Of a stretch of DNA of 22,898 bases, positions 18,363 to 19,758 are shown piece after piece (position 1 is the first letter of the stretch; every line of letters begins with the position of its first letter). A program made the position numbers and the translations under genes. Below the pieces are notes generated by a model. The model had not been told where the DNA came from and did not search any database. It worked only from the letters and a program-made list of their open reading frames with translations. Source of the DNA: a virus; IMG/VR virus record IMGVR_UViG_3300034110_000398, positions 1 through 22,898 of that record. The stretch is one strand, 5' to 3'.

Positions 18363-19196
18363 TCAGAACGGGATGGCGGGGAAGGTCGGGCTCTGGGCGT
18401 GGCCTGCAGCCGGCGCGACGTCGATCACATCGGCTCGGCGGCTGGCGGCTGGCTGGCTGTCGGGGTGGCGCTGGCCGGTGGCCTGCTCCCAGCGTTCGCG
18501 GGCCAGGCGCTGGTCGCGCTCCCGGAAGGTCTCGACTGGCTGCTGGGCAGCGGTGCGGCCAGGGGCGGTGGCGTACCAGTCGGCCCGGAATCCGGTCCAG
18601 CCGCGTTCGCAGCAGACGACCAGGGCGTCGGCCAGGTTGATGCCCGCCTTGTCGGCTTCGCGGCCAATGCCGGCCAGGGCGGTGGCCGACAGCGGGCTGC
18701 GCTTGGCCTTGCGGATGGCCAGGAAGTCGGTCCAGACCTGTTCGTCAACACCGTCGGGGCGACCGATCGACACCGCCTTGCGCGGTGCTTGACGGTTACT
18801 TGACGGTTCTATTGACGGTTCTATGACGGTTATGGGTGCAGATTCTGCGGGGGTGGGGTGCAGAATCTGCGGGGGTTGGGGTGCAGATTCTGCGGGGGTG
18901 GGGTGCAGAATCTGCGGGGGTGCAGAATCTGCGGGGGTGCAGAATCTGCGGGGGTTGATGGTGTAGATCGAGCTGCGACCATGGCGCTCGAAGATGGTTA
19001 GGACGCCGACCTTCCTGAGGTCCTGAATGTGGCCTTGGACCGAGCGCTCGGACATGCTGCAGCGCTTGGCAATCATCGGGATGGAGGGGTAGCACTCGCC
19101 TTGGTCGTTGGCGTTGTCGCACAGGCTCAGCAGCACCAGCTTGCGGCCTGACGGCATGCAGGACTTCCAGGCTTCGGTCATGAGGGCGATGCTCAT
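18363..19196 (-). CDS. O-like replication initiator with origin repeats inside the gene
   Basis: A 277-residue protein. Residues 1-80 form a winged helix-turn-helix (MPSGRKLVLLSLCDNANDQGECYPSIPMIAKRCSMSERSVQGHIQDLRKVGVLTI) of the type at the N-terminus of phage O-like initiators. Residues 82-136 are low-complexity Pro/Ala/Ser sequence encoded by DNA repeats. The C-terminal part (VDEQVWTDFLAIRKAKRSPLSATALAGI...) is a helical domain found in similar phage replication proteins. In lambda, O binds iterons located inside its own gene and recruits P with DnaB; the same arrangement of initiator, internal repeats and following P-like gene is seen here. The start overlaps the preceding gene in an ATGA. 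An antisense RNA is predicted just upstream. Confidence 0.85.
   Translation of the reverse strand: MSIALMTEAWKSCMPSGRKLVLLSLCDNANDQGECYPSIPMIAKRCSMSERSVQGHIQDLRKVGVLTIFERHGRSSIYTINPRRFCTPADSAPPQILHPTPAESAPQPPQILHPTPAESAPITVIEPSIEPSSNRQAPRKAVSIGRPDGVDEQVWTDFLAIRKAKRSPLSATALAGIGREADKAGINLADALVVCCERGWTGFRADWYATAPGRTAAQQPVETFRERDQRLARERWEQATGQRHPDSQPAASRRADVIDVAPAAGHAQSPTFPAIPF
18789..18831. repeat. Four helically phased TGACGGTT repeats (origin part 1)
   Basis: TGACGGTT starts at 18790, 18801, 18813 and 18824, all in one orientation and spaced 11, 12 and 11 bp, so all face one side of the helix. The stretch is clearly richer in A and T than its surroundings. It adjoins the palindromic iterons. 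The repeats fall in different reading frames of the O-like gene, so the protein sequence does not explain them. Confidence 0.75.
18838..18949. repeat. Six palindromic iterons GCAGA(A/T)TCTGC (probable replication origin)
   Basis: Copies of the 11-bp palindrome start at 18838, 18860, 18883, 18905, 18922 and 18939, giving spacings of 22, 23, 22, 17 and 17 bp. Each is followed by a GGGGG run. None of the 22, 23 or 17 spacings is a multiple of three, and the repeats are translated in all three frames (RFCT, ADSA, QILH). The conservation is therefore at DNA level. Position inside the O-like gene matches the lambda origin. Confidence 0.85.
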
Positions 19197-19375
19197 TTCC
19201 AGCCCCCTTCTGTCGGGGCTGCAGCCACTGTGATATCGAGCCCGTTGATGCGGGCGTTGCTTTCGGTCATAATCGCTTCACTCTCTTTCGAGTAGCCCAC
19301 CCGAGCTGTTGCTGCAGCGTTGACGGTGGGCTTTTTCTTGCCTGCTGTTTGGAGGTTGGCCGCAGGCATCGCCAT
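19193..19375 (-). CDS. Small hypothetical protein upstream of the O-like gene, 60 residues
   Basis: The frame starts at ATG 19375, 5 nt after the preceding stop, and ends with an ATGA overlap into the O-like gene. It reads MAMPAANLQTAGKKKPTVNAAATARVGYSKESEAIMTESNARINGLDITVAAAPTEGGWK. I do not recognise it. Coupling implies that translation of this gene sets the level of the O-like protein. A predicted rightward RNA (19280-19339) is complementary to codons 13-32, so the gene may serve mainly as a control leader. A start at ATG 19268 (25 residues) is possible. Confidence 0.55.
   Translation of the reverse strand: MAMPAANLQTAGKKKPTVNAAATARVGYSKESEAIMTESNARINGLDITVAAAPTEGGWK
19245..19273 (+). 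promoter_or_regulatory. Sigma70-type promoter for an antisense RNA
   Basis: TTGATG (19245-19250), a 17-nt spacer and CATAAT (19268-19273) on the plus strand. The -35 box matches consensus at 4 of 6 positions and the -10 box at 5 of 6, with ideal spacing. It points against the early operon and lies inside a coding region; transcription would start near A19280. Confidence 0.7.
19280..19339 (+). ncRNA. OOP-like antisense RNA (predicted, about 60 nt)
   Basis: A promoter ending at 19273 and a terminator ending at about 19339 bound a transcript of roughly 60 nt with no open frame of useful size. It is fully complementary to the early operon mRNA just upstream of the O-like gene. Lambda OOP RNA (77 nt) has the same layout: short, ended by an intrinsic terminator, opposite to the early operon, next to O. 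There it pairs with cII mRNA and triggers RNase III cleavage. Here it would be expected to lower expression of the 60-residue gene and, through coupling, of the O-like initiator. The promoter and terminator are seen; the RNA and its effect are inferred. Confidence 0.65.
19294..19339 (+). terminator. Rho-independent terminator of the antisense RNA
   Basis: AGCCCACC (19294-19301) pairs perfectly with GGTGGGCT (19325-19332). Inside lies a second small stem, GCTG/CAGC, with a six-base loop. The outer stem is followed by TTTTCTT. The T-rich tail is only on the plus strand, so the signal acts rightward and should not block the leftward operon. Confidence 0.75.
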
Positions 19376-19380
19376 GGTGA

Positions 19381-19758
19381 TCACACGCCCAGGCCGGCCT
19401 GCTGGGCCACGGCAAACACCGGGTTGCACTTGGCACCCGTCACGCTGCAGGCGCGGGCCGGGCCGCGCGCCAGTCGGCGGCTGGCCACCAGCGAGGTGAC
19501 GCGACCGCTGATGCCGTTGGGGTTGACGCGTTTGCCCAGCTGCTCTTCCATGACGAGGCAGATCTCGTTGAGGCTGAGGTCGCGGCGCCGGCGCGCATGG
19601 GCCAGCCGCACCGCGTTCATGACCAGCTGCTCGCCGCGCGTGAGCTTGGCGGCAGACATGGCCTTGAAGTTGTCGGACTGGATGTCACGGCTGGTGACGG
19701 CGGTGTGGGTGTGCATGGTGAATCGCTGCGGGTAGATATCAGGGAGGTTCTGGAGCAC
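19381..19758 (-). CDS. Winged-helix-like hypothetical protein of the early operon
   Basis: Up to 125 residues from GTG 19758 (8 nt after the preceding stop); ATG 19716 would give 111 residues, and neither has a strong ribosome-binding site. The core MSAAKLTRGEQLVMNAVRLAHARRRRDLSLNEICLVMEEQLGKRVNPNGISGRVTSLVASRRLARG looks like a winged helix-turn-helix: three helices followed by a wing. The end CSVTGAKCNPVFAVAQQ could be a short strand region with two cysteines. It sits between small regulators and the replication genes, where lambdoid phages carry CII-type or replication-accessory proteins. I cannot name a family; DNA binding is inferred from the fold pattern. Confidence 0.65.
   Translation of the reverse strand: MLQNLPDIYPQRFTMHTHTAVTSRDIQSDNFKAMSAAKLTRGEQLVMNAVRLAHARRRRDLSLNEICLVMEEQLGKRVNPNGISGRVTSLVASRRLARGPARACSVTGAKCNPVFAVAQQAGLGV

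Follow-up and report, generated by a model that had tools for sequence, protein, structure and literature searches.

A conserved OOP-like promoter and terminator, with a predicted kink-turn, set against the replication genes of diverse phages

The locus analysed here raises the question of whether a plus-strand promoter and terminator set against the replication genes of a phage form a real transcription unit and, if they do, how such a unit would act. The OOP RNA of phage lambda, the obvious precedent, has for the most part been seen as something peculiar to enterobacterial lambdoid phages, and how it bears on replication is still disputed. The DNA in question (hereafter, the window) comprises all 22,898 bases of an IMG/VR record and is a fragment of a tailed phage with a lambda-like terminase that shows 37-38% identity to those of mEp237, N15 and HK225.

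The promoter claimed in an initial, sequence-only reading of the window was recovered by a promoter scan and scores beyond controls. It is a pO-like sigma70 promoter on the plus strand (19245-19273) that consists of TTGATG (19245-19250), a 17-nt spacer and CATAAT (19268-19273). The -10 box, complementary to ATTATG, lies over the start codon of a 25-aa ORF on the opposite strand; read in reverse complement, its first three bases are the ATG of this ORF. The predicted antisense RNA, about 59 nt long, close to the earlier estimate of about 60, would start at about 19280 and end at about 19338 on the plus strand, shortly after a terminator hairpin (19294-19332) that combines an 8-bp outer stem, AGCCCACC/GGTGGGCT (19294-19301/19325-19332), an inner 4-bp stem, GCTG/CAGC (19305-19308/19315-19318), and the hexaloop TTGCTG (19309-19314). 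The hairpin reads AGCCCACC-CGA-GCTG-TTGCTG-CAGC-GTTGAC-GGTGGGCT and is followed by the T-rich tail of an intrinsic terminator, TTTTTCTT (19333-19339); as had been proposed, no such tail is present on the opposite strand of the window hairpin. The predicted RNA fold has a z-score of -3.8, with none of 200 shuffles equally stable. Past the T tail, a second hairpin is found on the leftward strand (G-C/T-CTGCGGCC...GCAGAC/GGC; 19340-19375 in the window), and also in the relatives L012, L050, L051 and L058.

The early gene within which the unit had been placed, and which was said to be coupled by ATGA to the O-like initiator, is a different matter. The 78-aa leftward ORF (19193-19429) is probably not a gene, judging by the pattern of substitutions: all 6 codons that differ between the window and its close relative L002 changed nonsynonymously, with 0 synonymous changes, and in L012 the hairpin sits in a frame different from that of this ORF. 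On the same two observations, we rejected protein-coding constraint as the source of the conservation. The ORF that is ATGA-coupled to O is the 25-aa one (19193-19270, minus strand), which occupies the position of orf48 of P22 (PMC3349717) and the leader of which is the presumed target of the RNA. The O-like replication initiator itself (277 aa; 18363-19196, minus strand) contains six exact iterons, GGTGCAGANTCTGCGGGG, at 18835-18953, compared with four copies in the O gene of L002; these iterons represent the probable replication origin, placed as in lambda. On the other side of the element, a 125-aa early gene (19381-19758, minus strand) has no family match and, specifically, no match to CII; the predicted RNA end at 19338 lies about 43 nt short of this gene, which ends at 19381.

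To gather relatives of the element, we scanned viral contigs with patterns, searched with covariance models and ran BLAST against plasmids. Altogether, 32 distinct elements were identified including that of the window, the 31 further ones residing in phage contigs and one phage-plasmid; because close relatives are included, the number of independent lineages is below 32. Loss of the promoter or the hairpin among the relatives was looked for, and both persist, with compensatory changes in the stem and identical promoter boxes around unrelated spacers. Thus, L002 and the distant relative L003 (O proteins 45% identical), which were found by protein search without a T-tail criterion, both retain the plus-strand promoter and hairpin, and the promoter boxes of L003 are identical to those of the window around an unrelated spacer.

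The promoters stand out from several kinds of background. At the first 18 homologous sites, the best upstream sigma70 score averages 8.27. The corresponding means are 3.45 at 170 antisense-start-codon controls taken from the contigs that carry these sites (Mann-Whitney p = 1.3e-8), 3.33 for the opposite strand (p = 7.6e-6) and 4.97 for shuffled sequence, the p values being optimistic because related loci are counted as independent. A further 16 sites, identified from their hairpins regardless of the promoter, have a mean of 9.81, compared with 2.52 for the other strand. Within the 1.70 Mb of strands scanned, TTGATG-N17-CATAAT is matched exactly five times, each time preceding the element; the spacer is 17 nt long in 26 of the 32 members; and in 20 of the 32 a start codon is overlapped by the -10 box, with one directly adjoining it in several others. 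L012, L014 and L050 have promoters that do not outscore the controls. A plus-strand T tail is found in essentially all members (T-richness was a filter in one of the searches, and was absent from an earlier pattern scan and from the protein search that yielded L002 and L003). The wobble pairs in the stems are 5 G-U and 0 A-C when read in the plus-strand sense, which favours a plus-strand RNA.

The stems covary strongly. In the first alignment, 100% of 163 cells are paired; in the second, which was fitted to the covariance model and includes a small number of weak rows, 98% of 398 cells are paired, with 63 double changes and a covariation score of 0.413 compared with 0.107 for shuffles. The first search patterns demanded CGA and TGAC, so that the invariance of these motifs was built in, and the search was therefore repeated with the internal loop left free. 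Every match with complementary stems and a T tail once more carried two GA dinucleotides, one on the 5' side of the inner stem and the other preceding the outer stem. The tandem GA/GA is present in 32 of 32 members, and the internal loop and the hexaloop are kept while the outer stems change completely, as in the low-GC phage L094, whose outer stem is entirely different and whose promoter, TTGAAA-17-TATAAT, is nearly perfect. This conserved loop, as well as the breadth of the family, goes beyond what the sequence-only reading had noticed. Sequence and comparison establish the promoter and the terminator, how they are arranged and conserved, the setting before replication genes and the GA/GA loop, and we are highly confident that the unit is a real, conserved transcription unit.

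The internal loop of the terminator is predicted to form a kink-turn (k-turn). A standard simple k-turn comprises a 3-nt bulge, G.A and A.G pairs, one non-Watson-Crick pair and regular pairing (PMC4316175); under this definition, the window would contribute C-G-A (19302-19304) as the non-bulged strand and G-U-U, G-A, C (19319-19324) as the bulged strand. The standard signature, tandem G.A/A.G beside a 3-nt bulge, is found in the window and in about 20 of the 32 members, and about 12 of the 32 carry a shifted or 4-nt-loop variant. The energy model, which cannot score k-turns, prefers partial ordinary pairing in the internal loop; across the members, the G opposite U does not become part of a Watson-Crick pair, an argument in favour of a non-canonical loop. 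The hexaloop was also inspected for a YUNR U-turn, which is not consistent.

Nearly all the further members lie just upstream of phage replication modules that belong to several unrelated families. Downstream, on the opposite strand, are O-like and other initiators, DnaD-like loaders, primosomal proteins, and helicases or primases, spanning many PHROG families and reached either directly or past a small ORF or an antirepressor. A phage-plasmid of Marinobacter sp. M3C that carries the element is annotated "KilAC antirepressor - replication protein O". Upstream of the elements are Cro/CII-like HTH genes, RusA or small genes (unannotated genes were named by eye). The exceptions are L014 and L054, where the context is ParB/methyltransferase, and L056, with two copies. 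In the latter, a phage of an isolate genome, the tandem copies (695-743 and 960-1007) are 265 nt apart and precede small ORFs instead of a replication gene, inside a larger repeated intergenic segment. In L094 (8800-8960), an inverted repeat, GAAATAGAAAAAGCT / AGCTTTTCTATTTC, surrounds the entire short-RNA gene, such that the leader could fold alternatively.

The element family is not universal among O-like relatives: under a strict rule, an OOP-like unit was found before 0 of 25 others. When 399 genomes sampled from a single phylum were searched with the covariance model, no true member was detected, indicating that the element is rare in the sampled chromosomes. Several matches were set aside. 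A 37-nt intergenic stretch in a plasmid of Streptomyces sp. NBC_01485 (L099, 3001-3037) is 92% identical to the hairpin core of L058; it has part of the core but lacks a T tail and was excluded from the set. A Bradyrhizobium match from a genome scan (L015) has neither T tail nor promoter and looks like chance, a match in a Subdoligranulum plasmid is due to chance, and L069 has a plain hairpin without the internal loop. In Pseudomonas phage PseuP_222 (L127, 1940-2060), an OOP-like unit without the internal loop, with CATAAT on a start codon and a plain terminator hairpin with a T tail, is located between a CII-like gene and a regulator-O operon.

For the window and 12 further loci, no Rfam 15 match reaches the gathering threshold, and no description of such an RNA was found in Rfam 15 or in the open-access papers searched. 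The recurrence of the unit before unrelated replication genes points to a candidate family of phage control RNAs that has so far gone undescribed.

How might such an RNA act? In our view, it is somewhat more probable than not that an OOP-type counter-transcript restrains the expression of the replication operon through its RNA, with transcriptional interference contributing. The pO-like promoter, its -10 box doubling as the complement of a start codon, would fire against the early operon and yield the RNA of about 59 nt that would end at the intrinsic terminator with its k-turn-like bend. This RNA would be complementary over its full length to the leader of the operon, immediately before the O-coupled small ORF; pairing with the leader would block ribosome entry and expose the duplex to RNase III, and pairing together with convergent transcription from the promoter would restrain early expression of the replication initiator, an effect of which we infer both the direction and the size. 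This reading draws on the plus-strand promoters that score above controls, the exact promoter string that, in the strands scanned, occurs only before the element, the covarying stems, the plus-strand T tail, the G-U bias, the GA/GA recovered unasked, the replication genes downstream, the lambda-pO geometry and the iterons in O. It is weakened by several observations: the 5' part of the RNA varies between phages and the ribosome-binding site is only partly covered; in L094, the initiator start is 81 nt from the stem; three promoters, those of L012, L014 and L050, do not exceed controls; L014, L054 and L056 precede other genes, and the 25 other O-like relatives lack the unit under the strict rule; and in lambda the OOP RNA affects cII, not the O-P mRNA (PMC3985674).

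This evidence from lambda makes interference a serious rival to antisense pairing. If interference alone is at work, convergent polymerases cut early transcription into the origin region, and the RNA is a by-product that the terminator keeps short. The promoter geometry is the same as that of lambda pO, which lowers transcription from pR and mutants of which replicate poorly, with the RNA having no effect on the O-P mRNA (PMC3985674); however, interference requires no conserved internal loop or hexaloop, yet both are kept despite the complete change of the outer stems, so we regard this explanation as possible but clearly the less likely one. A second alternative gives the loop a role of its own, as the k-turn hairpin would serve as a platform, either for a protein encoded by host or phage or for a tertiary contact with RNA, and the short RNA would titrate that protein or make termination conditional. 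The tandem GA/GA in every member would fit, and the binding of proteins or the support of tertiary contacts is common among k-turns (PMC4316175), but the k-turn is a prediction, about 12 members deviate from the standard form (shifted or 4-nt-loop variant), and a gene for an L7Ae-type k-turn protein was found in none of the 16 carrier records searched, which makes this account doubtful. Finally, that the element works in the leftward mRNA, as a leader structure by the ribosome-binding site of which the plus-strand features are a mirror image, would suit its location in operon intergenic regions beside ribosome-binding sites and the second upstream hairpin that recurs on the leftward strand of several loci, but was rejected as highly improbable because it is on the plus strand that the T tail, the promoter, the G-U bias and the GA/GA loop are found.

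Extending the counter-transcript reading, one may tentatively envisage an undescribed family of phage RNAs with a terminator-borne k-turn to which a protein or a partner RNA binds, in which the pO-type counter-transcript is a portable replication brake attached to unrelated replication modules in phages of hosts apparently ranging from Proteobacteria to low-GC Gram-positive bacteria; this broader proposal is speculative. The presence of the same geometry before unrelated initiators, with an RNA structure that is much more conserved, suggests that an opposing promoter together with its RNA, placed where a replication module begins, is a general, recurrently selected device. The conserved bases of the GA/GA loop, the hexaloop and the promoter boxes are separately alterable, which offers a means of telling RNA pairing from polymerase collision and from protein binding.

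The likeness to lambda that the sequence-only reading perceived, in layout but not in sequence or target, is real and conserved. The scan that finds TTGATG-17-CATAAT in the window, with the -10 box over the start codon of the O-coupled ORF, finds TTGAGT-17-CATAAT at lambda pO, with the -10 box over the O ATG. In both cases, a short self-terminating RNA (here, a predicted one) is directed against the early operon where the replication genes begin; as in lambdoid phages, iterons lie in O, and as in P22, a small ORF precedes the O-like gene. In lambdoid phages, oop lies between cII and O, orf48 separates oop from the O-like gene in P22, and conservation extends over a 33-bp pO/oop segment (PMC3349717); no copy of this segment with up to 3 mismatches is present in the window. 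Whereas lambda OOP is antisense to the 3' end of cII, the window RNA is predicted to stop before the upstream ORF. The absence of the segment and the shortness of the RNA indicate an OOP-like layout but not an OOP member by sequence or target. The lambda terminator is a plain hairpin with no k-turn, compared with the GA/GA internal loop in the window (11.7 as against 69.6 bits under the covariance model of the element), and unlike lambda OOP, the element is found before unrelated initiators. The idea of a second solution to RNA control of replication in this lineage therefore holds as far as the terminator and the target, which is the leader and ribosome-binding region of the operon and not the end of cII, differ from those of lambda; the restriction to one lineage does not, the element being spread over many phages. 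In the Salmonella prophage BTP1, RNA-seq revealed a non-coding RNA, OOP-BTP1, in the OOP position (PMC7067206). This RNA comes from an enterobacterial lambdoid relative and is likened to the window element by position. Antisense RNAs to replication-gene leaders are also known from plasmids, namely, RNAII of pMV158 and CopA/CopT of R1, of which CopA acts via a coupled leader peptide. Unlike these, the window element resides in a phage early operon and has a k-turn-like terminator. With the k-turns of Kt-7, box C/D RNAs and the SAM-I riboswitch, it shares the same signature, and the predicted fold of the window sits inside a terminator.
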